Origin: Porphyromonas levii DSM 23370
Lineage (GTDB): Bacteria; Bacteroidota; Bacteroidia; Bacteroidales; Porphyromonadaceae
Direction: 5' to 3'
Length of the DNA stretch: 51,064 bases
NCBI RefSeq assembly: GCF_000379925.1
Contig: NZ_KB904227.1
Location: 1 to 51,064, forward strand
The notes below the pieces were generated by a model that had not been told where the DNA came from, searched no databases, and saw only the letters and a program-made list of their open reading frames with translations. Positions 6,168-37,592 of the stretch are shown in pieces. The first letter of the stretch is position 1; the number at the start of each line of letters is the position of its first letter. Both the position numbers and the translations under genes were made by a program.

Positions 6168-6255
6168 AGCTACTCCCTAGAGTAGAGAGAGTCCCTCCCC
6201 AGAGGGACTGGAGTTTTTCCCGCGAGAGACTCGAGTCCCTCGCGGGAGAGACTAA
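6168..6255. repeat. Array A: four tandem 22-bp palindromic units (GC-rich type)
   Basis: The units are 6168-6189 (degenerate), 6190-6211, 6212-6233 and 6234-6255, contiguous and with no spacers. Each of the last three is a 20-bp imperfect palindrome plus 2 bases. They fit AGTCCCTC at the left end and GAGRGACT at the right, with the second unit starting AGTTTTTC. About 7-8 of 10 arm pairs match per clear unit. The array lies between the terminator at 6030-6077 and the promoter at 6321-6350. The same unit type is found at 9121-9208 and 26816-26903. Confidence 0.85.
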
Positions 6256-6320
6256 TGCAAATAGCTAGAGTAAATATTGTCGCGACCTAGAGAGAGAAAT
6301 GCTTGAGACGTGCTAAAGCC

Positions 6321-6350
6321 TTGCCAGATGGTACTAAATTGTTATCTTTG
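6321..6350 (+). promoter_or_regulatory. Promoter for the LysM gene
   Basis: TTG (6321-6323), 19 bases, then TATCTTTG (6343-6350) is a close match to the Bacteroidota consensus. The predicted transcript starts near 6356 and gives a leader of about 30 bases before the ATG at 6384. Confidence 0.7.
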
Positions 6351-6383
6351 CGATTATATTAAAATGCAATTAAATTGGGAATT

Positions 6384-6773
6384 ATGATATTGCGCAGAAG
6401 TATACTTTGGGGATTACTAATCGTAGTAGGGTTATTTATGAGCTCAACGCTTGTGTTTGCTCAGCAGTCTACGAGAAGCCATACTGTAGTGGCTGGAGAA
6501 ACACTCTATGCGATTAGCCGCCAATACGGCGTAGCTGTGGATGAACTCATCAGGCTCAATCCAGAGGCTAAAAATGGGATAAAGATTGGGGAAGAAATCA
6601 AGCTTCCGGGCACTAAAACTGCTAAAGAAGCGACCTCAGGACCTACCTACCACAAGGTAGGAGCGGGCGAAACGCTTTACTCTATTTCAAGGAAATATGG
6701 GATTTCACCCAATGCATTACTGGCAGCGAATAGTTCTATTAGTAATGCAGATAGGTATACAAAGCAGGACTAG
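6384..6773 (+). CDS. Short exported LysM protein, possibly truncated
   Basis: The 129-residue product has an N-terminal signal sequence (to about residue 27, ending VFAQQ) and two LysM modules: residues about 32-74 (VVAGETLYAISRQYGV, ending IKLP) and about 89-129 (VGAGETLYSISRKYGI). LysM modules bind peptidoglycan, so a periplasmic or cell-wall role is likely. The second module stops abruptly after SNADRYTKQD and lacks the closing G-x-x-L-x-I-P segment that the first module has. Longer Bacteroidota proteins begin with this same double-LysM layout, so this gene may be a truncated relative. The stop codon shares one base with the GTG of the next gene. The ATG at 6384 is preferred to a TTG at 6375. 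Confidence 0.7.
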   Translation: MILRRSILWGLLIVVGLFMSSTLVFAQQSTRSHTVVAGETLYAISRQYGVAVDELIRLNPEAKNGIKIGEEIKLPGTKTAKEATSGPTYHKVGAGETLYSISRKYGISPNALLAANSSISNADRYTKQD

Positions 6774-7441
6774 TGAATAAAGTGACGATACAGTTGTATC
6801 GCGATAAAGTCATTGCACTTGACACCAAAGCAAATCCACTAGAAAAGTACTTGGGTCTCTCTTCGTTTACACTCGAACAAGCCAAGAATATAGAGGGAGA
6901 TAAGGGCGAAAACATCATTTCTGTGCCTGGAGTCTCCTGTATTCAGAAGCTCGAAGAGTGGCTATATGGCACAAAGGAGCAGGAGATACTATTCAGAGCA
7001 CATGCACAGAAGATTGTCTTTTGGTACTCATTTTTGCCTTGGTGGTTAGTATGCATGCCACTTCTGATAGCTGTCATCTATTGGGATATTGTACCTGGGG
7101 CACTTATCAGTCTGGTTGTTACTGGAGTATTGGTTTGGATGGGGATGCTCAAGCAGAAGAGAAGTTCCATTCAATTGGTAGAAGATTATATTGAGCTCAA
7201 AAGTGGGGTTATTGCTGATAAAAAGGCTTATATTCGGTACGAAGATATAGAACACGTGAGGACAAAGCTGCTGAGCTTGCTGGGATATCTCTCAAAGAAT
7301 CGTCATATCAGACTATTTACGAAGGGCAATCCGAAGTCTATACGTAGCGTTAAAGCACCATCTTCGGCTACCATTGTGGACTACATCCTCTATAGAAGCA
7401 GCAACACTACTCTACGAAATCACCTCAATTATAGGCGCTGA
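6773..7441 (+). CDS. bPH2-type PH-domain membrane protein
   Basis: The 222-residue protein has about 80 residues of unrecognised N-terminal sequence, then two close membrane segments (about 84-127, rich in Trp, Leu and Val). A bacterial PH-like (bPH2, PF03703-type) segment follows, reading VEDYIELKSGVIADKKAYIR and YEDIEHVR. Proteins of this type are membrane-bound and poorly characterised. The GTG start overlaps the stop of the LysM gene by one base (TAGTG), which would suit translational coupling. Alternatively, this frame is the continuation of the LysM gene after a frameshift near 6750: adding one base there would join the two reading frames. The start is therefore uncertain, but the C-terminal two thirds are well supported as coding. 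Confidence 0.6.
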   Translation: MNKVTIQLYRDKVIALDTKANPLEKYLGLSSFTLEQAKNIEGDKGENIISVPGVSCIQKLEEWLYGTKEQEILFRAHAQKIVFWYSFLPWWLVCMPLLIAVIYWDIVPGALISLVVTGVLVWMGMLKQKRSSIQLVEDYIELKSGVIADKKAYIRYEDIEHVRTKLLSLLGYLSKNRHIRLFTKGNPKSIRSVKAPSSATIVDYILYRSSNTTLRNHLNYRR

Positions 7442-7450
7442 ACTACATAG

Positions 7451-7510
7451 TGAGACTGTTGCACGAATGTCGAAAGTAACGCAGTAGTTCGCCACCGTGC
7501 AACAGTCTCA
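7451..7510. terminator. Long inverted repeat after bPH2 gene
   Basis: A perfect 14-bp inverted repeat, TGAGACTGTTGCAC at 7451-7464 and its complement at 7497-7510, with a 32-base loop. It begins 10 bases after the bPH2 stop codon, so termination is the simplest role. The long loop and lack of a U-tract make this uncertain. Confidence 0.45.
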
Positions 7511-7704
7511 TAGTGTGTCCTGCAATAGGGAAAACATATGCGCAATTACGGTTTGTAGTAACCAACCACACGACCCCGCCCGGGGGTTCGCTGTTTAATA
7601 GCATCCTTTCCCAGTAAAATGGTGCCCATTTATAATGAATACCCGCATCACAATACAGCTCCAGCAAGGATCGGACATAAAGGAGTCCGCATGCTAATAG
7701 ATTT

Positions 7705-7770
7705 ACAGAATCCTCAAAGAAAACTCAAGGGATACCCAAAGATTCCCCAAAGATTCCCCAAGAAGGGGGA
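7705..7770. repeat. 11-bp tandem direct repeat (about six degenerate units)
   Basis: AAAGATTCCCC occurs twice back to back (7738-7748 and 7749-7759). It is flanked in phase by AAGGGATACCC (7727-7737) and AAGAAGGGGGA (7760-7770), and more weakly by two upstream units (7705-7715, 7716-7726). The period is about one DNA turn. Only the two central copies are identical. Confidence 0.55.
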
Positions 7771-7938
7771 GTACAATTACAGTGTTTTTATCGACCTTGT
7801 ATCTATTAGCATATTATCTACTTAACATAACACATATTATTGATTAGTAGATATGAAACCATATATCAGTATAGAGGTAATCATTATTCTGCTAAGAAGC
7901 ACATAGTATTCTATGAAGTGCTGACCATTCAACCTATC

Positions 7939-8388
7939 CTAATGATCTTGTAGAAACGTCTCGAAGGTGTTGTCATCATAATAGACAATAATCTTTGTAA
8001 TCTTTCGCTCCTTAATCTTAGTTTCTTTGGGGAGCGGATTCTCGACCTTTATTTCATTAGCTTGGGGTTGCTTTTGAATATCAAACAAAGGCAAACCTAA
8101 GCCATAGAGTGTCGAATTAGGTGAAGGTGAATTAGCCTGTTCGAATGAAATGGCTATAGTCATCTCTCCCACTCCTGTTCGTATCCACTCTTCATTAAAA
8201 CTAGGAAAGGCATTTAGAATTTGAGACATTACCATTGCACTGATATCATTCCTGCCTTTGATTACGTGATTGAGTGTAGACGTCTTAATTCCAGTTTTTA
8301 GAGAGAAGTCAGCTTGTGATAGCCCCTCCTTAATTATTAGCTGCTCAAGCCTCTTTCCTTGCTCCATTAATTTCTCCTCTTTTACCAT
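7939..8388 (-). CDS. XRE-family helix-turn-helix regulator
   Basis: This 149-residue protein carries an XRE-type helix-turn-helix at about 12-62: GLSQADFSLKTGIKTSTLNHV, then KGRNDIS. FNEEWIRTGVGEM follows, a phrase usual in Bacteroidota phage-repressor-like regulators. The C-terminal 20 residues (ITKIIVYYDDNTFETFLQD) match the short conserved tail of this group. It should bind DNA as a dimer; its targets are unknown. It stands alone, with a long AT-rich region upstream that has a TGTATACA palindrome at 8422-8429, a possible self-control site. An internal ATG 8 codons in is an alternative start. Confidence 0.82.
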   Translation of the reverse strand: MVKEEKLMEQGKRLEQLIIKEGLSQADFSLKTGIKTSTLNHVIKGRNDISAMVMSQILNAFPSFNEEWIRTGVGEMTIAISFEQANSPSPNSTLYGLGLPLFDIQKQPQANEIKVENPLPKETKIKERKITKIIVYYDDNTFETFLQDH

Positions 8389-9602
8389 CTTTTCTTAGCT
8401 ACTTAGCATGTAAATTTTGTTTGTATACATACATTCACATGGAGGTACATTATACATACATCTTATATCCACACAAATATACACAAAATATCCAATTAAT
8501 ATGATGATTAGCTTTGTACAACACCTAAATACTATGTATACTAATTACTTCTGTTAGAAATATTATAGATTAAAAGATGTAATATACTGTTCATATAGAG
8601 ATTAGTTAGTCACCAATATCTATATATAGCAAACTTTGCATAAATCATATAGGATTACCCTACTCTGCCTTAAAATACGTATAGGATAGTATATATTATC
8701 AAAAGAAAACCAGATAGTTACAATGCAAAGAATACGAGTTCACAAAATGAATAACGCTTGATATTTGCATTTATTATTGTTTCGAAATTGCTAGAATCCA
8801 TATATATACCGAAGCTAGAGGTGTGAATTTATCGTGTGTATATCATATATATCATAAATTAGTTATGTGTATAAATTATATATGGATAGATAATTCACAT
8901 GGTAAATAGATACACAATGTGAATTTATAATGGCTTCTAAAGTCACTAGAAACGGGTAGTTTTGGATTTCGAGAATATAGGGAAATATTCATCTAAGCCA
9001 TTCTAGTAAATTTTGATCTTAGTAATGAGGTGTGTCAGAAGTATATGGATTAACAACCTGAAGGTATCCTTATTTTCAGAAATATGATTAGTGCCACCAA
9101 GTCCTTGCCTGAGCAAAGAAAGTCCCTCCCCAGAGAGACTCCAGTTTCTCCTTAGAAAAACTCCAGTCCCTCCCGGGAGGGAATCAAGCCGGTCTCCATA
9201 GAGACTAAAACCACGATGGATAATGGAAGTAACGAGACTAGGGACTAATAAAGGTACAATAGTAGACTATATAAACTTGATGACACTTTTGCACAAAAGC
9301 AAACTATGGCGTTGCTTACGGTATTCAGGCATGGTCATGTACTATACATTACGAATTCCCTCAATATTATACTATATCTCTCCAGATATTAGGTAGCTAT
9401 CGCTTATTTTACTAATATGCAACATGAAGAGTATGCTGATATACTTAATGGTATCCATTCCATACAAAGACACGGTGCTAACTGACCTATTACAATGACA
9501 GACGCTAATAGGACGACACCCACCCATATTTATGAGGATTGCTGAGAAATGGCTAACTTTGCAGATATTGGGTATGGTAGGGAAATATTAGAATTTAGTA
9601 AG
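8389..9602. other. Long divergent gap upstream of XRE and dxs genes
   Basis: About 1.2 kb without a convincing gene. The first 600 bases are very AT-rich, with small palindromes: TGTATACA at 8422-8429, and AATTCACAT (8892-8900) facing ATGTGAATT (8917-8925). The motif ATTCACATGG occurs both near 8431 and near 8893. Array B of 22-bp palindromes lies at 9121-9208. A 22-codon reading frame at 9417-9485 was seen but has no support as a gene. No tRNA, tmRNA or other recognised RNA was found. Confidence 0.55.
9121..9208. repeat. Array B: four tandem 22-bp palindromic units (GC-rich type)
   Basis: The units are 9121-9142, 9143-9164, 9165-9186 and 9187-9208. The third is the best palindrome (AGTCCCTCCCGGGAGGGAAT, 9 of 10 pairs). 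The first is close to unit 6190-6211 of array A. The second is the AT-richer variant starting AGTTTCTC. The fourth is degenerate (5 of 10). The array lies about 390 bases upstream of dxs, in the divergent gap. Confidence 0.85.
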
Positions 9603-11513
9603 ATGAGTAGTTATAAAAGTTACTCTTTATTGGATAAAATCAATTCGCCCAAGGACGTAAAACAGCTCTCAATCCAGGAGTTGCCTACGTTGTGCGAGGA
9701 GATACGAGGATTTCTTTTGGAGAGCTTGAGCAAAGTACCAGGGCACCTAGGTGCCAACTTTGGTGTTGTGGAGTTTACAGTAGCGTTGCATTATGTCTTT
9801 GATCTGCCAAATGATGAGATAGTTTGGGATGTTGGGCACCAGTCCTATGTCCACAAGATTCTCACAGGGCGTCGCAAGGACTTTGGAAATCTGCGTCAAT
9901 GGGGCGGTATTAGTGGTTTTACCCATCCCAATGAGAGCGAATATGATTCTTTTGTCTCAGGTCATGCCTCCAATGCTATTTCTGCGGCATTGGGTATTGC
10001 TGTGGGAAGTAAACTTCAGAACCTCAATAAGAGTGTAATCGCAGTTATTGGCGATGGAGCAATGACTGGTGGATTGGCATTTGAGGGGCTTAATAATGCT
10101 TCTTCTCAGCCCAATGATCTCTTGATAGTACTCAACGACAACCACATAGGGATTGACCCTATTACTGGAGGGCTAAGTAAGTACTTAGTAAAAGTAAGTA
10201 CTAGTAAGGTCTACAACTACATTAGGCACAAAGGCTATCAGGGTCTCAAGAGATTGAAACTTATCGATGAGAGGAGGAAACGTAACCTTACAAGGTTTAA
10301 TAATAGCCTCAAAGCGTTGATCAATGATGATAAGAATCTCTTTGAAGGGTTCAGTATCCGCTACTTCGGTCCCACAGATGGGCACGATGTAGTAGAGCTT
10401 GTTAGTACTCTGCGGAGTATTAAGGACTTCGAGGGACCAAAGCTTCTTCATATCAAAACGGTCAAGGGAAAGGGCTACGCACCTGCCGAAGAGAGCGCAG
10501 TGGTATGGCATGCCCCAGGGTTGTTCGATCCCGTAACGGGAAAATTGAAGGTAACTCCAGAGCTCCCTGATAGTCCCCTCAAATATCAAGAGATATTTGG
10601 CAAGACTCTCTTAGAATTAGCTGAGTTGGATCCTAAAGTAGTAGGAGTTACTCCAGCAATGATATCTGGTAGCTCGTTCAACTTCATGCAGGAGCGCTAT
10701 CCCAATAGGGTATTTGATGTAGGTATTGCCGAAGGTCATGCAGTAACCTTCTCTGCAGGATTGGCAAGAAAAGGAATGATTCCTTTCTGTAATATCTACT
10801 CTAGCTTTTTGCAGCGGGGCTACGATCAAGTCATCCACGATGTGGCGATGCAGGCAGCACCGGTGATTTTGTGCTTAGATCGTGCAGGACTAGTTGGAGA
10901 AGACGGTATGACTCATCATGGGGTATACGATATTGCCTATCTACGCACGGTACCAGGGTTGACCATCATGTCGCCAATCGACGAAAGTGAGCTTCGCCTG
11001 ATGATGTATACCGCTTATAAGCATCATAGTGAAGGACCATTTGTTATCAGATTCCCTAGAGGTAAGGGCACTTGTGGTGATTGGCATGTCCCATTTGAAG
11101 AACTACCATTAGGGAAGTCGCAAGTCTTGAGAGAAGGAGAAAAGGTAGTATTTGTCTCCTATGGTCCTATTGGTAGCACTGTTGCTACTGCTATAGATGG
11201 GCTTAAGAGTGAGGGTTATAATCCTGGACACATCAACCTACGATTTGTGAAGCCACTAGACGGTGAAATTCTCCAGCGAATTGCATGCGAGTATCAGCAT
11301 ATTATCACCATTGAAGATGGCTCTATAGCTGGAGGTGTGGGAAGTGCACTTCTAGAGTATTACTCAGATCATCACCTATCTATTCCTCTGACGAGGATAG
11401 GTGTTTCAGACCATTTTGTCAAGCAAGGGGCAGTATCCCTTCAGCATGCTTATGAGGGGATGGATGCTGAGTCGATCATAAATAAGGCGAAGGAGGTGTA
11501 TCGAACCCTATGA
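9603..11513 (+). CDS. dxs: 1-deoxy-D-xylulose-5-phosphate synthase
   Basis: DXS joins pyruvate and glyceraldehyde 3-phosphate with thiamin diphosphate (TPP), the first step of the MEP isoprenoid pathway, in the cytoplasm. The 636-residue form begins MSSYKSYSLLDKINSP, which is where family members normally begin. Visible motifs include VWDVGHQSYVHKILTGRR, SGHASNAISAALG, the TPP-binding IGDGAMTGG...NDN and LDRAGLVGEDGMTHHG. An in-frame ATG at 9549 would add 18 residues, but a -7-like TAACTTTG lies inside that extension (9554-9561), which favours 9603. The stop overlaps the trkA start by 4 bases (ATGA). A TPP-using enzyme in a window with a thiamin operon is a noteworthy but probably chance neighbour. 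Confidence 0.95.
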   Translation: MSSYKSYSLLDKINSPKDVKQLSIQELPTLCEEIRGFLLESLSKVPGHLGANFGVVEFTVALHYVFDLPNDEIVWDVGHQSYVHKILTGRRKDFGNLRQWGGISGFTHPNESEYDSFVSGHASNAISAALGIAVGSKLQNLNKSVIAVIGDGAMTGGLAFEGLNNASSQPNDLLIVLNDNHIGIDPITGGLSKYLVKVSTSKVYNYIRHKGYQGLKRLKLIDERRKRNLTRFNNSLKALINDDKNLFEGFSIRYFGPTDGHDVVELVSTLRSIKDFEGPKLLHIKTVKGKGYAPAEESAVVWHAPGLFDPVTGKLKVTPELPDSPLKYQEIFGKTLLELAELDPKVVGVTPAMISGSSFNFMQERYPNRVFDVGIAEGHAVTFSAGLARKGMIPFCNIYSSFLQRGYDQVIHDVAMQAAPVILCLDRAGLVGEDGMTHHGVYDIAYLRTVPGLTIMSPIDESELRLMMYTAYKHHSEGPFVIRFPRGKGTCGDWHVPFEELPLGKSQVLREGEKVVFVSYGPIGSTVATAIDGLKSEGYNPGHINLRFVKPLDGEILQRIACEYQHIITIEDGSIAGGVGSALLEYYSDHHLSIPLTRIGVSDHFVKQGAVSLQHAYEGMDAESIINKAKEVYRTL

Positions 11514-12853
11514 GAATATTTATAGTAGGTGCTGGGGAAGTGGGAACCCACCTAGCTGAGATGCTATCGCATGAGCAGCACGATATCATACTACTGGATT
11601 CCAATCCAGACAACCTCGAGTTTGCTTACGATAATAGGCTAGAGATCATGCCCTATGTAGGCTCTCCTACGTCATTCAAAGATCTGAAAGATGCAGGAGC
11701 GGATAGAGCCGATCTCTTTATCGCAGTTACGCCTGAAGAGAGTGGTAATATTGTCGCTTGTAATATTGCGACCCAAATGGGTGCGAAGAAGGCACTTGCA
11801 CGCATCAATAGCAGTGAGTATTTGATGCCTCAATATCGAGGACACTTTACCGCACTGGGGATTGATGATATGCTCTATCCTGAAGAGCTTGCAGCTGCGG
11901 AGATAGTCAGTAGTCTGAGTCTCCCTTGGGCTAAGCAGTATTGGAAAATATTCAATAATAAGCTCGCTCTCGTGGCAACACGGGTTATTAAGGGCTCTCC
12001 TCTACTAGGTAAGGAATTGATGGAGCTATCAGATCTCTCTGAAAAAGTCCTGCATATCCTTGCTATCGTGCGGGACAATCATACTATTATCCCTCGTGGC
12101 CACGATACTATAGAGGAGAATGATATCCTCTATGTAGCCGCTAAACCACAAGACCTTGAGAGTGTGCGTCAATTCTGTGGGCAACAGAAGTTGGAAGTAC
12201 ACCGTGTGATTATCATGGGAGGTAGTCGTATAGCTATCAAGACGGCACAAGCCCTACCCGATGACCTAAATATTAAGATCATCGAGAGTGACTATGAAAA
12301 GTGTATGCGTCTCTCCGAGATGGTACCTGAAAATACCCTTGTGATACATGGCGATAGTAGGGATCCCGACCTGCTTATCAATGAGGGAATAAAAAAGACA
12401 GAGGCTTTTCTAGCTCTTACGAGTTCGTCTGAGAGCAATATGCTTGCTACTCTCAATGCCAAGCGTCTAGGAGTGCCTATTTCCGTTTGTCAGATAGAGA
12501 ATCTTGACTATATTGACATCGCGAATGAAATGAAGATAGGCAACCTTATCAATAAGAAGCTATTGGCGGCCTCAGCAATTTTCCGTTACCTCCTCAATAT
12601 CGACATCTCCAGTGCTAAGACACTGGCGATAGGTCAAGGAGAAGTATTAGAGATTAAGGTGAGGGAAAATTCATTGGTCACCAAACGTCCTGTGGTGGAA
12701 CTCGAGATACCATCAGGGATTACCTTTGGAGGTATCTTACGTAATAATGAGGTACTGCTAGTAGAGGGTAAGACACAGATTAATGCGGGAGATATGGTAA
12801 TGGTATTCTCTCACAATGCCTCTGTGAATGACCTCAATAAACTCTTTGGATAA
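11510..12853 (+). CDS. trkA: Trk potassium transporter regulatory subunit TrkA
   Basis: This 447-residue peripheral protein gates the TrkH potassium channel on the inner face of the membrane. It has two RCK units. Each has a Rossmann NAD-binding half (the first at residue 1, IFIVGAGEVGTHLAEML; the second near 232, RVIIMGGSRIAIKTAQAL) and a TrkA-C half. The second glycine motif is degenerate (GGSRIA), which is common in TrkA. It overlaps dxs by 4 bases and is followed by trkH after 27 bases, so the three are probably co-transcribed. Confidence 0.95.
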   Translation: MRIFIVGAGEVGTHLAEMLSHEQHDIILLDSNPDNLEFAYDNRLEIMPYVGSPTSFKDLKDAGADRADLFIAVTPEESGNIVACNIATQMGAKKALARINSSEYLMPQYRGHFTALGIDDMLYPEELAAAEIVSSLSLPWAKQYWKIFNNKLALVATRVIKGSPLLGKELMELSDLSEKVLHILAIVRDNHTIIPRGHDTIEENDILYVAAKPQDLESVRQFCGQQKLEVHRVIIMGGSRIAIKTAQALPDDLNIKIIESDYEKCMRLSEMVPENTLVIHGDSRDPDLLINEGIKKTEAFLALTSSSESNMLATLNAKRLGVPISVCQIENLDYIDIANEMKIGNLINKKLLAASAIFRYLLNIDISSAKTLAIGQGEVLEIKVRENSLVTKRPVVELEIPSGITFGGILRNNEVLLVEGKTQINAGDMVMVFSHNASVNDLNKLFG

Positions 12854-12880
12854 AGACAAGTAGTATAATCATCTATTGCT

Positions 12881-14377: not shown

Positions 14378-14402
14378 TCACACTTAAAATACATATATCA
14401 CT

Positions 14403-15053: not shown

Positions 15054-15078
15054 CTTTCCATATCTTTATCATTATAAT

Positions 15079-15119
15079 ACCCCCTCTTCAGAGTTGGAAT
15101 AATACTCTGGTGAGGGGGT
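15079..15119 (+). terminator. Terminator after pdxH
   Basis: Arms 15079-15094 and 15104-15119 pair at 14 of 16 positions, starting ACCCCCTC and closing on AGAGT, with a 9-base loop. It ends the dxs-trkA-trkH-pdxH unit. There is no long U-tract. Confidence 0.65.
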
Positions 15120-15193
15120 GTTAGGTTAAGCAGGTAGATTTTGGTAATTTTGTGGGAGAAATAGATTTATAAAACTGATTGAGACAGCACATC

Positions 15194-15901: not shown

Positions 15902-15907
15902 GCACTT

Positions 15908-17684: not shown

Positions 17685-17720
17685 GATGTTTAATAAATAA
17701 GTTTGACAAGAAGAAAGATT

Positions 17721-18476: not shown

Positions 18477-18499
18477 TCCCAATAGTTAGGAAAGAGTTA

Positions 18500-18544
18500 C
18501 AGAGAAGTCTCAATCGCAAATTATTGCGGTTGAGACTTCTCTGT
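18500..18544 (+). terminator. Terminator after tpiA
   Basis: A 21-bp stem (18500-18520 with 18524-18544) with one G-U pair and a 3-base loop, 24 bases past the stop codon. A pyrimidine-rich run ending in TTTT follows. Confidence 0.85.
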
Positions 18545-18832
18545 ATACCCTTTTACCAAACGACTCCCACCAATATTCGATTCACTACTTCACGGCTCTT
18601 TAAGTCTGTAAAATAGATATTGCTCCAATAGATAAGGTTTATCCCCCACTCCTATGTTCTGAAAAAAAAGGACGTGGGTTTTCAGAGAAAAGGTCGACAG
18701 TTTCCTTCAAAATGCACGTGGGTTTCTATAGCATCTTCGGACGATAGCTTTTAGTCCATGTTTGGGATATGGTGATCTTGGTTCGTATTTCTAAACTGCT
18801 GAGAATGCTAATACCCACTAGCTTGATATGAA
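18545..18832. other. Convergent gap between tpiA and rplT
   Basis: There is no gene here. It holds a 10-base direct repeat, ACGTGGGTTT, at 18672 and 18716, exactly 44 bases apart, in a run (18649-18736) where GTT recurs every 22 bases. Unlike arrays A to D, the units are not good palindromes, so I do not call it a fifth array. Confidence 0.5.
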
Positions 18833-18870
18833 AATAGAGGTGACCTAGTTGTTACTAAGTCACCTCTATT
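18833..18870 (-). terminator. Terminator after rplT
   Basis: A 17-bp stem (18833-18849 with 18854-18870, one mismatch) with a 4-base loop. On the minus strand it is followed by TTTTC, giving a good intrinsic terminator about 20 bases after the rplT stop. Confidence 0.85.
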
Positions 18871-18888
18871 ATTTTATAGCTCAAGCTA

Positions 18889-19236
18889 TTATGAGCGAGC
18901 TTGCTCTACGATAGCCTTGAAGGCCTCAGGATGATTCATTGCTAGGTCAGCAAGTACCTTGCGATTGATATCAATTCCCTTGTCTTTGAGCATTCCCATG
19001 AACTTGGAGTAGGATAGACCTTCCTCACGAACTGCAGCATTGATACGCTGAATCCATAGAGAGCGGAAACTACGCTTCTTGGCCTTACGGTCACGATAAG
19101 CATACTGCAGACCCTTCTCCCAAGTGTTCTTGGCTACCGTCCAAACGTTCTTACGTGCACCGTAATAGCCACGGGTCTTCTTTAGAATCTTCTTTCTCTT
19201 CGCTCTTGAAGCGACGTGATTTACTGATCTTGGCAT
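18889..19236 (-). CDS. rplT: 50S ribosomal protein L20
   Basis: The 115-residue L20 binds 23S rRNA early in large-subunit assembly. The sequence [20 protein letters not shown] is typical, as are [14 protein letters not shown] and [20 protein letters not shown]. It is the last gene of thrS-infC-rpmI-rplT. The 112-base gap to rpmI is long for this operon and could hold an L20 binding site, but no clear structure was seen. Confidence 0.98.
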
Positions 19237-25046: not shown

Positions 25047-25056
25047 CCGAATACTT

Positions 25057-26538: not shown

Positions 26539-27127
26539 AATTACATTGCTCTTCAAAGAGATTTTCCACTACTTATATAAGTACCTCTAAGCATTATAGG
26601 GGAATAGCCCCGCACACAATACTTTAGGTTACAAATATAATCATTTGCACTAAAATAACCTCTCGCAGGGAGTTAAACCTAGTTAATTCTATGGCTTAAA
26701 AGTTTTCAGCACCTATGAATTGGGGAAGTTGCTTCAGCAGAAATAAGTTAAATAGTAGCCACTTGAGAAAAGAACAGTCCCGCTCTCCCTCATTTTCCCT
26801 CTGGTATTCAAAGAGAGTCTCTCTGGCGAGGGACTAGAGTTTTTCCCGAGAGAGACTAGAGTCTCTCCCCTGAGGGACTGGAGTCTCTCCCGCGAGGGAC
26901 TGAGGCGAATAACGCTCCTAATGAATAGGAGCACATACACCACTTGACTTGAGAAGGGCTACTATGGAGTGGTAACAAGGTAGTTCTTGAGTAGTGCGAG
27001 TAAATATACTAGGAGCTCTCCAAGATGAGGCCAATTCTTATCTTAGAACGTAGTATACTTTATCCGACATTCCAGATATAAAGGAAAAATGGCTATATTT
27101 ACAATCTGAACAACAAAACGAATATCG
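26539..27127. other. Divergent gap between TPR protein and tetR
   Basis: 589 bases with no gene. It contains array C (26816-26903). Nothing else recognisable was found; TATATTTA near 27094 is one base off a -7 box for the tetR gene. Confidence 0.5.
26816..26903. repeat. Array C: four tandem 22-bp palindromic units (GC-rich type)
   Basis: The units are 26816-26837, 26838-26859, 26860-26881 and 26882-26903, with no spacers. They fit the 20-base consensus AGTCTCTCCCGCGAGGGACT (unit 4) with 7-8 of 10 pairs in each. The second unit again begins AGTTTTTC, the same variant in the same place as array A. The array ends 224 bases upstream of the tetR ATG. Confidence 0.88.
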
Positions 27128-29010: not shown

Positions 29011-29013
29011 GAT

Positions 29014-30048: not shown

Positions 30049-30058
30049 ATATAGCGGT

Positions 30059-30826: not shown

Positions 30827-30829
30827 TAT

Positions 30830-31747
30830 ATGCTTACGGAGCAAATCACAGAGATAGCTGAAGGGCTTGGAATAGATGCTATTGGCTTTGTGCCTATACA
30901 AAAAGTCGACTCTGATGCCTTGGCACAGTACGACTCTTGGTTGGCAAGCGGGAAGCAAGCCGGTATGGAATACCTTGAGAAGTACAAGGAGCAGCGTGAA
31001 GACCCGCAGCTCCTACTCCCCGAGGCGAAGAGCGTGATTGTAATCGCTGTGAGCTATTATCCCGCTGAGCTACAACCTAGCGATGCTCCTCAGATTGCTA
31101 AGTACGCTCTCGGGCGTGACTACCACAAGGTGATTAAGCAATTGCTCCTTACTCTTGCAAGGTGTATAGAAACAGAGGTAGCCGCACACAGGTATCGTCC
31201 TTTAGTGGATACAGCTCCTTTTATGGAGCGCTACTGGGCTAAGAGATCTGGTATAGGTTTTGTGGGGAAGAATAGTAACCTCATTGTGCCTCGTGTGGGG
31301 AGTTTTGTCTTTCTTGGCGAACTTCTGACTTCGCTCGAGCTATCTAGCGAACTCGTTTGTGCCAAAAGCTGCGGTAGCTGTCGCAGGTGTATCGAGTCTT
31401 GCCCTACAGGAGCACTCTCAGAAGATGGGCTGGATGCTCGGCGCTGTATCAATTACCTTACTATTGAGCACAGGGGCGACATTCCTCAAGATCTATCAAG
31501 GAGATTCGGCAAACGGCTCTATGGCTGCGACACTTGCCAAGATGTATGTCCGCACAATAGAGCGCCACGCCCCACAAGACACTTTCCATCTTCTCCACAA
31601 CTACTTAAGCTCAAATGGGAGGATGTAAGAGAGCTAGATGAAATACGGTATGCCCAAATATTCTATGGCTCGGCTACTACGCGGGCGAAGCTAGAGGGGA
31701 TGCAACGAAACGCAATGATCTACACAATTAATAATAAGCAATCATGA
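30830..31747 (+). CDS. queG: Epoxyqueuosine reductase
   Basis: This cobalamin and iron-sulfur enzyme makes queuosine in tRNA from epoxyqueuosine. The 305-residue protein has SVIVIAVSYYP, ALGRDYHKVIK, VDTAPFMERYWAKRSGIGFV, and two 4Fe-4S clusters (CGSCRRCIESCPTGAL and YGCDTCQDVCPHN). It ends just beyond the iron-sulfur domain, so it lacks the HEAT-repeat tail of longer QueG. The stop overlaps the next start by 4 bases. Confidence 0.94.
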   Translation: MLTEQITEIAEGLGIDAIGFVPIQKVDSDALAQYDSWLASGKQAGMEYLEKYKEQREDPQLLLPEAKSVIVIAVSYYPAELQPSDAPQIAKYALGRDYHKVIKQLLLTLARCIETEVAAHRYRPLVDTAPFMERYWAKRSGIGFVGKNSNLIVPRVGSFVFLGELLTSLELSSELVCAKSCGSCRRCIESCPTGALSEDGLDARRCINYLTIEHRGDIPQDLSRRFGKRLYGCDTCQDVCPHNRAPRPTRHFPSSPQLLKLKWEDVRELDEIRYAQIFYGSATTRAKLEGMQRNAMIYTINNKQS

Positions 31748-33522
31748 AAAAGGTACTTACACTACTCGTAGCCTTACTCCTATTTTCGTGCTCTGAAGGG
31801 AGCAAAAAGGTAGAGCTACGACTTACTGATTATGGCGCTGTAGTCGATGATGCTACGCACGACAATGCCACAGCACTGCTAGATCTTCTGGAGGACGCCC
31901 ATAAAGCGTCGGCAGAGGGCAAAGAGGTAGTCATCTATCTCCCCAAGGGCAATCTCCACATCTATCAGGAGCATCTTCCTCTTCATCAGCTGTATATCTC
32001 CAATCACGACCACGTGGTTCAGCGCCCAGTAGCGATGATGCTAGAGGGGTTGAATAACGTTAGCATACAGGGTGAGGAGACCCACTTGGAGTTCCACGGT
32101 CGTCTTATCCCTATTGTCCTGAAGGAAAGCAACAATATCCATTTAGAGGGCTTCTCTATCGACTTCCCACGTCCAGCAATGAGCCAAATAGAGGTTTTAG
32201 AGGTAGATAAAGAGCACAACGATGCCAAAGTAAAAGTGCTTGGCGAGACCGAGTATCGCATCGAGGGTAATCAGTTTGTACTCATAGGTGAGACCTACGA
32301 ACAACCTCTATTCACTATGCTGGCGTTTGATAAAGACGGTCACATGAAATGGAATAGATCCGACCCTGCCTTCAACCCTGAAGCGATAGAGGAGACAGGA
32401 GACCACCAACTTCAGCTGCGCAACTGGGACGAAGCACAGTACCTAGAAGTTGGCGATAGGTATGCTCTACGCTCCTACTATCGCCCTACTCCAAGTATCG
32501 TGATTATGGATTCTAAGACTATTGAAGTCAAGAATGTCTCTGTACACTTTGCTGAGGGGATGGGGCTTGTAGCGCAGAATAGCACTGACCTAACTTTAGA
32601 TGGTTTCCACGTAGCCCTATCGGATGGTAGTGAAAGAGTCTTTACTACTGTAGCCGATGCGACACATTTCTCAGGGTGCCGTGGCAAAATCATTTCTACC
32701 GATGGGCTCTATGAAAACATGGCAGATGATGCTATCAATGTACATGGTACCTATCTTAGGGTAGATAGTATTAATGGCAATGAACTCATTGGTACCTTTG
32801 CCCATGGTCAAAGTTTCGGTTTCAGATGGTATGAAGTGGGAGATAGCCTTAGGCTTATCTCTCGAGAGACCCTGTTGCCTATAGCTACTTACTTACCTAC
32901 AAAGGTAGAAGTGCTCTCTACTACTCAGATAAAGATGACTTTTTCCGAACCACTTCCACAGACCTCCAAGGCGCTTGCGGTAGAAAACCTCACGGCTCAT
33001 CCTGAAGTACTATTTTCGAAGAGTACAGTTCGAAACAACCGTGCACGAGGCGCCCTATTCTCAACTCCAAAGCGTGTAGAGTGCACCGATAATACCTTCG
33101 ACCATACCCACGGCAGTGCAATCCTACTTACAGGAGATGCCAATGGTTGGTACGAGAGCGGACCTTGCGAAGAGGTAGTCATTACGGGTAATCACTTTAT
33201 CAATGCCCTCACTAGCCTATACCAGTTTACTGATGGTATCATATCTATCTCTCCTCAGATGCCTCAGATGGTAGAGGGCGAGTACTTCCATGGTCGAGTA
33301 GTAGTAGAGAACAATGTCTTTGACAACTTCCCTACCCCTATCTTCTATGCCAAGTCACTACGGGAACTTGTATTCAAGAACAACACAATCAATATCAATA
33401 AAGATTACACATCCCTCTTTGAAGATCCCAATGCTCGACTCTATAATGTCGGCACCTACATCAGTGACGACCCCAATACACCTCTTACAGACTGCAAAGA
33501 CACTACAGTATCGCTATTTTAA
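31744..33522 (+). CDS. GH110-like alpha-1,3-galactosidase, right-handed beta-helix, lipoprotein
   Basis: This 592-residue protein has a lipoprotein signal (LLFSCSEG, Cys16) and a right-handed parallel beta-helix body with many short repeats. Between residues 330 and 340 is DDAINVHG (Asp328, Asp329), the phrase I associate with GH110 galactosidases, which remove alpha-1,3-galactose from B-type blood-group and linear glycans. Upstream parts (IYLPKGNLHIYQEHL, LEFHGRLIPIVLKESNNIHL) fit the same family. It would act on host or dietary glycans at the cell surface. It overlaps queG by 4 bases, an unusual neighbour for a surface glycosidase. Exact substrate is not provable from sequence. Confidence 0.78.
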   Translation: MKKVLTLLVALLLFSCSEGSKKVELRLTDYGAVVDDATHDNATALLDLLEDAHKASAEGKEVVIYLPKGNLHIYQEHLPLHQLYISNHDHVVQRPVAMMLEGLNNVSIQGEETHLEFHGRLIPIVLKESNNIHLEGFSIDFPRPAMSQIEVLEVDKEHNDAKVKVLGETEYRIEGNQFVLIGETYEQPLFTMLAFDKDGHMKWNRSDPAFNPEAIEETGDHQLQLRNWDEAQYLEVGDRYALRSYYRPTPSIVIMDSKTIEVKNVSVHFAEGMGLVAQNSTDLTLDGFHVALSDGSERVFTTVADATHFSGCRGKIISTDGLYENMADDAINVHGTYLRVDSINGNELIGTFAHGQSFGFRWYEVGDSLRLISRETLLPIATYLPTKVEVLSTTQIKMTFSEPLPQTSKALAVENLTAHPEVLFSKSTVRNNRARGALFSTPKRVECTDNTFDHTHGSAILLTGDANGWYESGPCEEVVITGNHFINALTSLYQFTDGIISISPQMPQMVEGEYFHGRVVVENNVFDNFPTPIFYAKSLRELVFKNNTININKDYTSLFEDPNARLYNVGTYISDDPNTPLTDCKDTTVSLF

Positions 33523-33547
33523 GAGGAACTACGCTAAGGTGTAAAAG

Positions 33548-33589
33548 TATTAAGGGTGAGCTAAACATAAGTTCAGCACACCCTTAATA
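33548..33589. terminator. Terminator between GH110-like gene and tig
   Basis: Arms TATTAAGGGTG and CACCCTTAATA (33548-33558, 33579-33589), extended by an inner GAGCT/AGTTC pair. It lies between two convergent genes, probably working for both; TATTTA follows on the plus strand. Confidence 0.7.
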
Positions 33590-33609
33590 TTTATAGTCTA
33601 ACTAGGTGA

Positions 33610-34992
33610 TTACTCCTCAGTAGTCTCCTCCTTCTTAGGATTGAGGATATCGTGAAGCTCATTCACAGTTACCTGCTTAGTCTCTAGCTTTACCTTATCC
33701 TGCATAGCCTTACCCACCTTCTGCTCTAAGATATTCATCTCTACAGAGTAAGCGAAGTTGCTATCCTCTAGTTGCTTATTGGCATAGTTAGCTACGATCT
33801 CATGGTCAGGATTAGTCCAGCCCATCTGAGCGAATTGGTTACGAACCATCTCGTATGCGAAGCCACGTACATCCTCCTCAGATACCTCGAGCTTCTCCTC
33901 ATTGGCTAGATGACGAACGTATAGTTCACGCTTTAGGCTCTTGATAAGTGCTTCCTTATTAAGGTTCTTCAGACCCTCTTCGTCATCGTTGCGTTTTAGA
34001 TTGTCGCTGTACCACTCGATGATTAAGTCGTCAGCAAGCTCTAGCTTTGAAGCCTTCTCATCCTTAGCGAAGTCTAGGAAGTCTGAGGTAAACTTATAGT
34101 CCGCATTGCCCTGCTCTGCAGCCTCCATATACTCACGAATCTTTGCCTTAGCCTCATCCTCGTTCGTTACCTTACCCTCACCAAATACGCTGTCGAAGAA
34201 CTCCTGATCCAGTTCTGCTGGCACCATGTGACGAATAGTCTCAATCTGGAAGCTAAACTCCTTATCCTTAAGGCTCTCAACTTCCTCTTTCTCAATACCA
34301 ATAAGAGAACTAAGCTCTGCCTCATTGCCATTGAACGCCTTGTATGGGTTGAATACCACTACAGAGCCCTTACCTGCATCCTTAAACTTAGCCTTCTCTT
34401 CCTCATCCTTCATAAAGTCAGGATAGATGGTAACATTCTCACGTACGATGCCATCCTCCTTACGGGTATCACCATCGAGCTCTGCAATATCACCACCAAC
34501 GACTGCATTCTCTACAACTTGGTCGGTCTCCTGCATGCGTGAGCTACCCTGCTGCATATCTTCGAGCTGCTTTGCCACCTCCTCCTCGGTTACAGTCACC
34601 TCATATTTTGTGAAGGTCTTTCCGCTAAAGTCTGTATCATACTCTGCTGGATGAAGGGCGAGCTTGAAGAAGAGGGTCATATCCTCCTTTGTCATCTCTA
34701 CACCATTGTTCTCCTCTGGAATAGCCCAGCCGATAACCTTATATTCCTTCTCCTTGATAAACTCATCTACGAGCTTGCCTACCATACGATTGATTACCTC
34801 ATAGCGAACACCCTCACCATACATCTTCTCAATCATACCTACAGGAGCCTTGCCCTCCCTAAAGCCTTTCACCTTAGCACTACGAGCTACATGCTTCAGC
34901 TCCTTCTTGTGCTCATCCTGGTAATCGATCTTTGCTACATCTACTTGGAGACGTACAAAACCCTCCTTCTGCTCAACTATTGAGATATTCAT
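33610..34992 (-). CDS. tig: Trigger factor
   Basis: The 460-residue ribosome-bound chaperone shields new chains. The N-domain ribosome-binding loop reads KVKGFREGKAPVGMIEKMYG (about 39-58). A PPIase-like middle and a helical C-domain follow. The PPIase core is poorly conserved, as I recall for other Bacteroidota members. It ends with a low-complexity acidic tail (PKKEETTEE). A promoter lies at 35047-35078. Confidence 0.92.
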   Translation of the reverse strand: MNISIVEQKEGFVRLQVDVAKIDYQDEHKKELKHVARSAKVKGFREGKAPVGMIEKMYGEGVRYEVINRMVGKLVDEFIKEKEYKVIGWAIPEENNGVEMTKEDMTLFFKLALHPAEYDTDFSGKTFTKYEVTVTEEEVAKQLEDMQQGSSRMQETDQVVENAVVGGDIAELDGDTRKEDGIVRENVTIYPDFMKDEEEKAKFKDAGKGSVVVFNPYKAFNGNEAELSSLIGIEKEEVESLKDKEFSFQIETIRHMVPAELDQEFFDSVFGEGKVTNEDEAKAKIREYMEAAEQGNADYKFTSDFLDFAKDEKASKLELADDLIIEWYSDNLKRNDDEEGLKNLNKEALIKSLKRELYVRHLANEEKLEVSEEDVRGFAYEMVRNQFAQMGWTNPDHEIVANYANKQLEDSNFAYSVEMNILEQKVGKAMQDKVKLETKQVTVNELHDILNPKKEETTEE

Positions 34993-35046
34993 TTCTCTAA
35001 ATCTTAATACTATAGTAGTTATTACTTATTTCCAAAGAATTATCGG

Positions 35047-35078
35047 CAAATATACCTCTTTTCCACCACATAAGACAA
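35047..35078 (-). promoter_or_regulatory. Promoter for tig
   Basis: On the minus strand TTG (35076-35078), 21 bases, then TATATTTG (35047-35054). The leader to the tig ATG would be about 50 bases. Confidence 0.6.
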
Positions 35079-35081
35079 TAG

Positions 35082-35111
35082 AGGCGCACCCAAATAGCCT
35101 TGGGTACGCCT
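35082..35111 (-). terminator. Hairpin after the SOD gene
   Basis: A 12-bp stem with one mismatch (35082-35093 with 35100-35111) and a 6-base loop, 30 bases past the SOD stop. It overlaps the upstream edge of the tig promoter region. Confidence 0.65.
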
Positions 35112-35141
35112 TCTAAGTGCCTTTATCAAGATAATGCCAGA

Positions 35142-35870
35142 TTAGCGATTTGCGTAGCGCTTAGCCACCTCATCCCAATTGGTGATATCCCAAATCTTAC
35201 CGAGGTGCTCAGCACGACGATTCTCAAAATCTACATAATAAGCATGCTCCCATACATCTGCACCGAATAGAGGTGTAAGACCATCAACGACAGGGTTACC
35301 TGCGTTGCTGTACTTATTGATAGAAAGGTTACCATCCTTATCGGTTGCTAACCATGCCCAGCCAGCACCGAATAGGGCAGTAGCATCTGCCTCGAACTGC
35401 TTCTTAAACTCTGCGAAGCTACCCCACTTAGCCTCGATAGCCTTTAGGAGGTCACCCGTTGGCTCACCACCCTTATTAGGTGCGAACTGTGTGAAGTAGA
35501 GGTTATGATTAAGGGTCTGACCAGCATTATTAAAGATGCCGCCCTCAGACTTCTTCACGATATCTACGAGCTCCATATTTGCAAACTCGGTACCCTCGAT
35601 GAGCTTATTGAGGTTATTTACATAGGTCTGGAGGTGCTTACCATGGTGCAGACCAATAGTAGTTGCGCTGATTACTGGCTCCAAAGCATCAGGAGCATAA
35701 GGTAGTTTTACTAGTTCAAACTTCATATTCGCTTCTTTCTTATTAGTTGTTGTTACTTCTACGTCTTCTTTTTGCATCTCTGCCGTGTTGGTCTCTACCC
35801 TCTTAACATCAAAAGAGGAAAGCCCGATAAGTAGCGATGCTAGTGCTACAGTAATGTATCTTGTCTTCAT
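35142..35870 (-). CDS. Iron/manganese superoxide dismutase with signal-like N-terminal extension
   Basis: The 242-residue protein converts superoxide to peroxide and oxygen. The SOD part begins at Met49 (MKFELVKLPYAPDALEPVIS). The metal ligands are His75, His122, Asp205 and His209 (DVWEHAYY). Before it is a 48-residue extension that starts like a signal peptide (KTRYITVALASLLIGLSS) followed by an acidic, Thr-rich stretch, so the enzyme may be exported. Gly203, two residues before Asp205, corresponds to the glycine I recall as allowing the P. gingivalis enzyme to use either iron or manganese. The upstream start is preferred because the extension looks like a designed signal, but Met49 is a possible second start. 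Confidence 0.93.
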   Translation of the reverse strand: MKTRYITVALASLLIGLSSFDVKRVETNTAEMQKEDVEVTTTNKKEANMKFELVKLPYAPDALEPVISATTIGLHHGKHLQTYVNNLNKLIEGTEFANMELVDIVKKSEGGIFNNAGQTLNHNLYFTQFAPNKGGEPTGDLLKAIEAKWGSFAEFKKQFEADATALFGAGWAWLATDKDGNLSINKYSNAGNPVVDGLTPLFGADVWEHAYYVDFENRRAEHLGKIWDITNWDEVAKRYANR

Positions 35871-35942
35871 TCAAAACATTCACGCATTATTGCGCTTCGG
35901 TTATATAACAACACATGACTCGAAAAGGTTTATTGAGAGAAT

Positions 35943-35986
35943 AAAAAAGGCTCCACACTCTCTCAATTAATGGTGAGTGCGGAGCC
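35943..35986 (-). terminator. Terminator after the HU gene
   Basis: A 12-bp stem (35949-35960 with 35975-35986, one mismatch) followed on the minus strand by six T. It is a textbook intrinsic terminator about 20 bases after the HU stop. Confidence 0.9.
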
Positions 35987-36008
35987 TAAAATCTAGATTG
36001 CTCTCAGC

Positions 36009-36278
36009 TTACTTGTTAAGGTTGAGAGCGGCACCTGCCTTGAAACGAACTACCTTTCGAGCAGCAATCTTCATCTTCTTGCCAGTCTGAGGATTTACAC
36101 CCTCGCGAGCAGCACGCTCTGAAACAGAGAAGGTACCAAAGCCTAGGATAGCAATCTTTTCGCCCTTCAACATCTCCTCACGAATAACCTCGATACCAGC
36201 ATCAACGGCTTTCTTAGCGTCAACTTTAGTTAGTTCACCTTTTTCTGCAATAGCAGCAATAAATTCAGTCTTATTCAT
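36009..36278 (-). CDS. HU-family DNA-binding protein
   Basis: The 89-residue protein has the HU order: MNKTEFIAAIAEKGELTKVD, then GFGTFSVSERAAREGVNPQT with the DNA-bending Pro, and KVVRFKAGAALNLNK at the end. It bends DNA as a dimer and shapes the nucleoid. It has a clear promoter and its own terminator, so it is monocistronic. It could bind the phased palindromic arrays, but there is no direct evidence. Confidence 0.96.
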   Translation of the reverse strand: MNKTEFIAAIAEKGELTKVDAKKAVDAGIEVIREEMLKGEKIAILGFGTFSVSERAAREGVNPQTGKKMKIAARKVVRFKAGAALNLNK

Positions 36279-36379
36279 ATTAAAACAAATTTAAAAATGG
36301 AAGTATATAAAATTATCATTTTTGTAATTCTTAGTAAAGTCATCTATCTCTATGGACAAAGCCCTCACTAATTCATGTC

Positions 36380-36409
36380 CAAATATAGTGTAATTATTCG
36401 TAAAACCAA
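36380..36409 (-). promoter_or_regulatory. Promoter for the HU gene
   Basis: On the minus strand TTG (36407-36409), 19 bases, TATATTTG (36380-36387), a near-perfect consensus match. The leader would be about 95 bases, long for a small gene. Confidence 0.7.
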
Positions 36410-36487
36410 GTAGATATGACTATTTTTAGATTTTTTACATATTAAATATTGACTTTACACCTATATAAAAGGGTATACAGCACTATT

Positions 36488-36519
36488 ATTGATATCTCCT
36501 CAAGTTATGAGAGGTCAAT
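36488..36519 (-). terminator. Imperfect hairpin at the xerD stop
   Basis: ATTGA...TCTCCTCA (36488-36502) pairs imperfectly with TGAGAGGTCAAT (36508-36519), overlapping the xerD stop codon. It lacks a U-tract, so the role is uncertain. Confidence 0.35.
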
Positions 36520-37417
36520 GATTACGTGGATGGTAGTTCAGGATGTCATCTCTGAGCTTACTTCTATCAATATGTGTGTAAATTTCAGTTGTAGAAATAT
36601 CGGCATGCCCTAGCATATCACGAATGGCTTGTAGGTTGGCTCCACCCTCCAAAAGATGTGTAGCGAAAGAGTGCCTAAAGGTATGCGGCGAGATTTCTTT
36701 CTCTAGGCCTATGCGTTCGGCCAGCTCCTTGATCACCATAAATACCATTTGCCGAGAAATGCCAGTGCGAATACGGTTAAGAAACACATGATGGGTGTAT
36801 CCTGGCTTTGCCTCTACAGCGTGACGAATGGGCAAATAATCCATAATCCGCTCTACTGCACTTTCAGACATAGGCACCAATCGCTCTTTACTACCTTTAC
36901 CTACCACTCGGATGTACTTCTCCTCCAAAAAGAGGGATGGAAATGTGAGGTCGCAAGCCTCTGATACCCTAAGCCCACAACTATACAGAAGCTCTATAAG
37001 CGCCGCATTTCTCACTCCATTGGACGTATCAAGGTCTATCGCACCGATAAGTTCATCCACCTCCTCCACCGTCAGTACTTCAGGCAGATGCTCCGATACT
37101 TTAGGGCCTTCGAGGGTCTCCGTAGGATTATCTTCTAGAATCTCCTCCAATTCTAGAAAACGGTAAAAGCTTTTCACCCCACTCACCGTTCGGCGAAGGC
37201 TCTTTTGCCTCAGTCCAAGATCGGAGAGATATGCCAAAAAACCTTCTAATTCCTCATACGTAAGCTCGAGATATGACTTCTCTCGCATCTCGGCATACTC
37301 AACCAAGTGCTGCACATCCCTACCATAGCTCACGATGCTATTCTCTGCTAAATTTCGTTCTAGCAGCAGGTAATCACGATAATCCTGCAGTAGCTCATCT
37401 ATTTTTCTATCTTTCAT
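36515..37417 (-). CDS. xerD: Tyrosine recombinase XerD
   Basis: The 300-residue recombinase resolves chromosome dimers at dif with XerC. Catalytic residues are Arg150, Lys174, His245, Arg248, His271 and Tyr280 (SCGLRVSEA, PHTFRHSFATHLLEGGANLQ, GHADISTTEIYTH). The N-terminal SAM-like DNA-binding domain covers about 1-105. It is called XerD rather than an integrase because of length and motif fit, and no phage or integrative genes are near. A -7 box TAACTTTG at 37422-37429 ends only four bases before the ATG, suggesting a leaderless mRNA. Confidence 0.9.
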   Translation of the reverse strand: MKDRKIDELLQDYRDYLLLERNLAENSIVSYGRDVQHLVEYAEMREKSYLELTYEELEGFLAYLSDLGLRQKSLRRTVSGVKSFYRFLELEEILEDNPTETLEGPKVSEHLPEVLTVEEVDELIGAIDLDTSNGVRNAALIELLYSCGLRVSEACDLTFPSLFLEEKYIRVVGKGSKERLVPMSESAVERIMDYLPIRHAVEAKPGYTHHVFLNRIRTGISRQMVFMVIKELAERIGLEKEISPHTFRHSFATHLLEGGANLQAIRDMLGHADISTTEIYTHIDRSKLRDDILNYHPRNH

Positions 37418-37421
37418 ACCC

Positions 37422-37429
37422 CAAAGTTA
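37422..37429 (-). promoter_or_regulatory. Putative -7 box of xerD, very close to the ATG
   Basis: TAACTTTG on the minus strand fits TAnnTTTG and leaves only 4 bases before the xerD ATG. No TTG at -33 was found. Confidence 0.4.
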
Positions 37430-37504
37430 CCACTTTCTAGAGCTATTCCATAGCTTGTCTAAGTAGTAGAGCCATAGCGCTTTGTGATAGTCTACTGAGT
37501 ACAC

Positions 37505-37592
37505 AAATTTATTCCTAGGAATAAATAAAACTTTCCCTAGAGATAAATATTTTTATTTGTACAGAAAAATAAATTTATTCCTAGGAATAAAT
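37505..37592. repeat. Array D: four tandem 22-bp palindromic units (AT-rich type)
   Basis: The units are 37505-37526, 37527-37548, 37549-37570 and 37571-37592. Units 1 and 4 are identical over 22 bases and contain the perfect 20-base palindrome ATTTATTCCTAGGAATAAAT; unit 4 extends to 24 bases in context. Units 2 (centre CTAG) and 3 (centre GTAC) pair at 6 and 7 of 10 positions with centres exactly in phase. The sequence is unrelated to arrays A to C, but the architecture is the same. It lies between xerD and the thiamin promoter. Confidence 0.88.

Follow-up and report, generated by a model that had tools for sequence, protein, structure and literature searches.

Tandem 22-bp dyad arrays between the genes of Porphyromonas levii as candidate insertion targets of a MITE/REP-like kind

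What are the tandem palindromes that lie between the genes of Porphyromonas levii DSM 23370, and do they act as DNA or as RNA? We addressed this question in a window of 51,064 nt (NZ_KB904227.1, positions 1-51,064; the P. levii genome is labelled G000 below), in which an earlier note had described four 88-bp palindrome arrays. All four exist, at 6167-6254, 9098-9185, 26815-26902 and 37506-37593, and all four are intergenic, as the note had stated; each core follows the same design of about four 20-bp dyads with 2 bp between dyads. We favour the reading that they are dispersed, short, non-coding intergenic dyad elements that act at the DNA level as insertion targets, comparable to miniature inverted-repeat transposable elements (MITEs), repetitive extragenic palindromes (REPs) and the BrickBuilt repeats, and we give this reading a probability of roughly 0.57.

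RESULTS

The arrays were scored with a detector that is blind to sequence and sums complementary pairs over three units of a fixed period, nine pairs per unit, for a maximum of 27. The four arrays scored 20-21 of 27, and in none of their gaps did any of 500 dinucleotide-keeping shuffles reach the three-unit dyad score of the array. Genes were taken as open reading frames (ORFs) of at least 90 aa from a simple caller. With these genes, arrays 2, 3 and 4 lie in divergent gaps and array 1 between two plus-strand genes, so that the placement of three of the four in divergent gaps was correctly noted before. The uniform length of 88 bp holds less well. Array 1 has three full units (6189-6254), flanked by an outer divergent dyad (GCTACTCCCTAGAGTAG, 6167-6188) with 6 of 9 pairs, and array 2 likewise has three (9120-9185), flanked by a weak outer unit (9098-9119, ending in GAGCAAAGA) with 3 of 9 pairs in register. 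Array 3 (26815-26902) carries four full units, and so does array 4 (37506-37593), next to which lies an outer degenerate unit of family B resembling an inverted repeat (TTCTTACTTGCGCGAGCCACAA, 37594-37615).

Nor do the four arrays form a single class of sequence, as had been supposed. Arrays 1-3 belong to the GC-rich family A, with the consensus AGTYYYTC, four loose bases, GARRRACT and two bases. Array 4 belongs to the unrelated AT-rich family B (AATTTATTCCTAGGAATAAATA with one TGTACA unit), its units reading CCTAGG, CTAGAGA, TGTACA and CCTAGG. A fifth period-22 site in the window, with a detector score of 19 at 18674, is part of a weak array of three units at 18663-18728 (19 of 27, 0 of 500 shuffles as good). 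It lies in the convergent gap 18477-18888, which had been considered free of arrays. Its units resemble family E (L109:14637-14722); membership is weak, as the E profile recovers the array at only E = 0.037. The number of gaps longer than 350 bp, previously put at six, is seven with ORFs of at least 90 aa; the one missed, 35871-36514 (644 bp, between two minus-strand genes), is without an array at a best score of 16.

Is the pitch of 22 bp a preference of the genome? Across 806,430 sampled bases of G000 (33,818 of them N), we found 31 sites at period 22 at a threshold of 20, five each at periods 21 and 23, and 0-3 at each of the others between 15 and 30; about half of this sample (20 stretches) had been chosen for holding family A matches, which favours period 22. 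The control without the stretches so selected (396,895 bases, window included) gave 17 sites at period 22, five at 21, four at 23 and 0-2 at each of the others at the same threshold, with one control stretch, L173, holding a family A match already among the listed A places.

Four further families in the genome share this design: C (TTTCCAACGTTGGAAA), D (AATCTCATATGAGAATC), E (AAAGGTCGACCTTT) and, at period 23, F (TTAGTATATACTAA). Profiles found 25 A, 13 B, 5 F, 2 C, 2 D and 1 E arrays in the sampled stretches. Genome-wide, family A occupies 27 distinct places (four redundant contigs counted once), family B at least 40 (40 of 63 candidates scored) and family F 21 places plus two fragments, with solo F ends at L163:9831 and L175:1812. 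The redundant contigs of G000, C25 (1-6753), C38, C68 and C100, share the first array, with flanks that are identical over 1500 bases to one side and over 498 bases to the opposite side; the same segment is thus repeated at several contig ends, so raw repeat counts are inflated and must be thinned. For the profile-found arrays, the thinning rule based on identical flanks removed none.

The family B copies show how the arrays may have multiplied. Among 21 copies compared (from 24 rows, three left out as chance matches to the search motif), 12 read CCTAGG, TGTACA, CTAGAGA, CCTAGG, three (that of the window, L116 and L164) have CTAGAGA before TGTACA, and six have three units. Like units are nearly identical between copies, the flanks differ, and the same layouts recur at unrelated loci; most arrays therefore look copied whole rather than made anew. 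By eye, the flanks consist of a degenerate outer unit only: GGCTCGC...AGTA and its reverse complement in B, a GAGC-type unit in A and a 46-bp arm in F. Left and reverse-complemented right flanks resemble, again by eye, one degenerate motif, and the match within a copy is no better than that between copies. Left and right flanks did not covary as the arms of a single long hairpin would, and this reading was rejected (permutation P 0.15-0.95 for A, B and F). At L061, two arrays lie 900 bp apart (5480-5760 and 6380-6680) with similar flanking inverted repeats (CAATTTAGTTG) and different cores, as if cores had been exchanged within one element.

A second sequence adjoins the B arrays and keeps their register. 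This sequence, R, is 220 bp long and lies at contig ends, and the 17 copies obtained on scoring 40 of 52 candidates are 99-100% identical; R probably marks the end of some multi-copy insertion element. The R end is turned towards a B array in 15 of the 17 copies, and its distance to the first clear dyad axis ranges from 5 to 49 bp. When the 22-bp grid of the array is extended, the next dyad axis falls 3-5 bp beyond the R junction for 14 of the 15 copies (P = 1e-11, with three of 22 phases allowed); L314 is out of register. The two remaining copies, at L319 and L322, lie away from arrays. Further out, no 25-mer is common to the 17 contexts of R, and R gave no match in plasmids. As the R copies are nearly identical and the arrays differ, R looks younger than the arrays, and the outer unit that R interrupts elsewhere is intact at L168 and L165. 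Junctions that fall in outer units without type-B letters keep the register as well, while the letters at the junction vary, which would mean that what is targeted is the shape of the dyad or else a protein that occupies the array. These in-register junctions of R at B arrays are new here. Arrays and the joined R sit at contig breaks.

Where are the arrays placed in the genome? Of 43 placeable arrays, 40 are intergenic and the other three lie inside ORFs of 99-132 aa. The 40 comprise 19 in divergent, 17 in tandem and four in convergent gaps, a count that leaves out the three in ORFs and five at contig edges and to which the weak array of the window was added by hand. Gap length predicts 33% divergent, 56% tandem and 11% convergent (for n = 40, divergent P = 0.06, convergent P = 1.0). 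One array, L026:167, was dropped as a copy of L027:10729, of which it is the exact reverse complement over 63 bp; a stretch of 120 bp with flanks was not found to be identical, and L026:167 may be a second array. We then brought the tally to 52 arrays with 12 B, F and E places added by hand, these being the best search matches and no random draw, and with the F array at L013 re-called from tandem to divergent via L217; 30 are divergent (P = 0.0003), 18 tandem and four convergent (P = 0.66). Family A alone has 11 divergent, nine tandem and none of 20 convergent (P = 0.16 for zero). Thus, divergent gaps are enriched and convergent gaps stand at chance, and the avoidance of convergent gaps read earlier from the window gives way, for the pooled arrays, to the frequency expected.

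If a hairpin were under selection, changes in one arm should be clearly compensated in the other; half-sites that are independent of each other in duplex DNA should show no compensation. In 133 distinct units, complementarity is 65-89% in the arms (pairs 4-10) and 39-50% in the centre (pairs 1-3); the matches were scored on pairs 4-9 without period control, and the tenth pair, which was not used, is still 65% paired. Mismatches in the arms are of the same order for both types, 46 G-T and 36 A-C. At the sixth pair of family A, the most variable one, 96 units selected with a hand-typed consensus containing Y/R positions show TG 36, TA 21, CA 21 and CG 17, i.e. 38 standard pairs against 46.5 expected from shuffling. 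The seventh pair (63 against 57.6 expected, P = 0.10) and the tenth (91 against 89.1, P = 0.04) lean weakly towards pairing. The half-sites of family A hardly covary, a further new observation, which argues against a selected hairpin, and the earlier lean towards a DNA-level role is borne out by these counts. As single-stranded DNA, arrays 1-4 nevertheless fold more stably than their shuffles, with z values of -6.05, -3.96, -1.97 and -6.25, with 10 of 200 shuffles folding as well as array 3; the weak array at 18663-18728 has a z of 0.02. Rfam covariance models at the gathering score gave no match at the window arrays, the only matches in the window being a tRNA and a thiamine pyrophosphate (TPP) riboswitch.

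Is this geometry a common motif in related bacteria? In 400 kb of G017, presumably a P. gingivalis-like genome by its 140 BrickBuilt units, nine sites at period 22 and five at 23 reach the threshold of 20, including AACGATCTATATATAAATCGTT-type arrays, a 23-bp array of four units and BrickBuilt itself. One of the G017 arrays (L254:12754-12841) consists of four TTTCCAC/GTGGAAA dyads containing TGTGGAAAA, which we take to resemble DnaA boxes. Around thrS, 80 Bacteroidales loci hold six sites at period 22, three at 21 and 0-2 elsewhere. Phocaeicola vulgatus (400 kb) has two at 22, one at 21 and none elsewhere at threshold 20, and six at 22 (one inside a gene) against 0-3 at other periods at threshold 19. 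In 260 kb of congeners we found one site at period 22 and none at other periods; E. coli K-12 (100 kb) lacks period-22 sites even when the threshold is lowered to 18. Each array in these Bacteroidales has a different sequence and, by eye, mostly three to five units; at one orthologous locus, exactly one 22-bp unit has been gained or lost between G017 and its relative G019. That the geometry appears to be kept while the letters differ is new here.

How do the arrays relate to described repeats? Tandem repeats of 22 nt in P. gingivalis W83 were reportedly described by Nelson et al. in 2003. Genome searches found the A, B and E sequences in none of 11 congeners and F in one of them, which upholds the suspicion of an undescribed family as far as the A and B sequences go. 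The class as such is already published. Klein et al. 2015 (PMC4596501) describe BrickBuilt of P. gingivalis as intergenic 23-nt tandem repeats borne on MITEs, and mention that tandem repeats of 41, 23 and 22 nt had been described in W83, with no positions given. The search in older papers for a 22-bp repeat, proposed before, thus leads to 22-nt tandem repeats in the same bacterial family; their sequence probably differs from the present arrays, and G017 has 22-bp arrays of the AACGATCTATATATAAATCGTT type. BrickBuilt shares with our arrays tandem units, in its case of 23 nt, intergenic position, multiple copies, a limited host range and a number of units that changes by whole units, and its unit TATCCTCTCATATGAGACCATAG is picked up by the same detector at period 23. 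Our arrays likewise have tandem 22-23-nt units without long spacers and are intergenic and dispersed. In contrast, BrickBuilt has another sequence, 1 to 22.8 units, a leader of up to 285 nt and a tail of up to 318 nt, both long and non-repetitive, and IS5-type terminal repeats. Its 23-nt unit AGAYCATARTATCCTCTCRTRTG, as an exact pattern, has no match in G000 and 140 in G017, and by eye our arrays have no leader or tail with IS5-type 12-nt terminal repeats, their flanks being short degenerate outer units of the GCTC/GAGC type.

REPs are a second relative. They are short, multi-copy intergenic palindromes that serve as insertion targets of particular insertion sequences, as stated by Tobes and Pareja 2006 (PMC1525189) and in work on GTAG/CGTC REPs (PMC3733652), and ISPa11 appears as a REP-targeting insertion sequence in PMC11187229. 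The arrays resemble REPs and bacterial interspersed mosaic elements as many short intergenic palindromes used as insertion targets, and R would be the element joined specifically to palindromes, if it is indeed an insertion element. Unlike REPs and mosaic elements, the arrays have a strict 22-bp head-to-tail phasing, and the junctions follow the register while the junction letters vary. The machinery of REP-associated tyrosine transposases was rejected, as the Y1 transposase (PF01797) has no match in G000, with matches in four of 12 genus genomes. One REP-like palindrome, GTAGGGGCGAATAATTATTCGCCCC, lies at L166 around 9733 in this genome. Repeats of the CRISPR (clustered regularly interspaced short palindromic repeats) type with unique spacers of about 30 nt are not found, the arrays having a spacing of only 2 bp, and array 4 gave no match in phages. 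Among the papers listed by searches on Porphyromonas or Bacteroides repeats, none, judged by title and start of abstract, describes this geometry as a general class. The arrays are thus of a known kind, intergenic MITE/REP-like repeats, in a new sequence variant.

Array 4 has three further neighbours. A XerC/D-like tyrosine recombinase (PF00589) is encoded at 36515-37417 and adjoins the array, and it has a match in 12 of 12 genus genomes searched. Downstream of the array and ahead of a thiamine gene lies the TPP riboswitch (Rfam RF00059, 57.8 bits, 37737-37840). Between this riboswitch and the ATG of a phosphomethylpyrimidine kinase gene, we found a 27-bp inverted repeat (AGTTACGAGTTACGGCTACGCAG) with a 9-bp loop at 37856-37918.

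DISCUSSION

How could dispersed dyad elements of this kind work? We infer that copies of the arrays spread by transposition in trans. A protein acting as a dimer or oligomer would recognise the dyads in double-stranded form, with half-sites at intervals of about 11 bp along one helical face, and the occupied array, or the dyad itself, would direct insertion elements to harmless intergenic sites. Effects on neighbouring promoters would then likely be by-products.

Several observations weigh against this picture. For families A, B and F themselves, transposase, target duplication and empty site were not found in the one genome of the species, and their degenerate flanks do not look like the ends of a typical transposon. 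Scoring 40 of 52 R candidates revealed neither the body of this element nor its other end. At L066, P. vulgatus has an array with no second copy in its genome, and dispersal is therefore not universal. The formation of arrays could also be purely mutational and have no role.

A further point comes from congeners, from which we took homologues of the two genes beside arrays 3 and 4 (L230-L251) and checked the gaps one by one. The recombinase gene that adjoins array 4 has an orthologue in G010, and the divergent gap in front of it holds a probable GAACTT...AAGTTC array (L241, about 1267-1382) with a pitch of 23, a score of 17 and a sequence different from that of array 4; 10 of 200 shuffles scored as high. 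In G001, L235 has a pair of dyads in a 3' gap, a result matched by 1 of 200 shuffles. Ten loci besides L241 have further 5' gaps of 90 bp or more, many of them short, and none of these holds a significant array, the best scores of 12-16 being equalled by 18 or more of 200 shuffles. As a single case and as weak evidence, L241 hints that arrays recur at the same place, which would not be expected of a purely mobile element. The two finds slightly lower our confidence in the mobile insertion targets and slightly raise that in operators.

Operator arrays, i.e. binding sites of specific regulators or of a nucleoid protein that insulates divergent promoters, selected for this function and not mobile, are a possible but doubtful alternative. 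They would account for the 30 of 52 arrays in divergent gaps where 33% are expected, for the 20 family A arrays, 11 of them divergent, nine tandem and none convergent, for dyads in helical phase and for conserved half-sites with an independent choice of Y and R, and the probable 23-bp array of other sequence in the orthologous gap of G010 fits them as well. They sit badly with at least six unrelated half-sites in one genome, with the ten congener loci that lack a significant array (many of their gaps being short) and with B copies that repeat the same layouts at unrelated loci.

Could the arrays be minisatellites of purely mutational origin, in which quasi-palindromes are amplified by slippage and template switching and tolerated in intergenic DNA? 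A geometry that recurs across Bacteroidales while the letters differ, the length change of one unit between G017 and G019 and the single-copy array of P. vulgatus are what such a process could produce; the dozens of copies with the same few layouts at unrelated loci and the predominance of 21-23 bp are left unexplained by it, and we consider it unlikely. An RNA-level element, in which tandem hairpins act as terminators, mRNA stabilisers or a small RNA, is improbable. In its favour are the stable DNA folds of the four main arrays (array 3 being the weakest), the transcription of BrickBuilt (PMC4596501) and the terminator-like hairpins that by eye adjoin 22-bp arrays of G017. Against it stand the similar numbers of G-T and A-C mismatches, the near or complete lack of compensation in family A, the enrichment in divergent gaps and the lack of an Rfam match at the window arrays at the gathering score.

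Returning to the dispersed insertion targets, we tentatively extend them to the order. The arrays may belong to a general Bacteroidales class of intergenic 'dyad ladders', each of about four 20-bp dyads at a fixed pitch of 21-23 bp whose letters are free to change in concert while the geometry is kept, forming a phased nucleoprotein platform whose register guides the insertion of mobile elements. This extension is rather unlikely as it stands.

What deserves further attention is the general geometry together with the in-register junctions. The junctions predict a protein on the array and an element that follows this protein. For readers of these genomes, it matters that arrays can fall inside spurious small ORFs. 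If the geometry and not the sequence is what is conserved, ordinary repeat searches would miss the class, and species with seemingly unrelated repeats would in fact share one.

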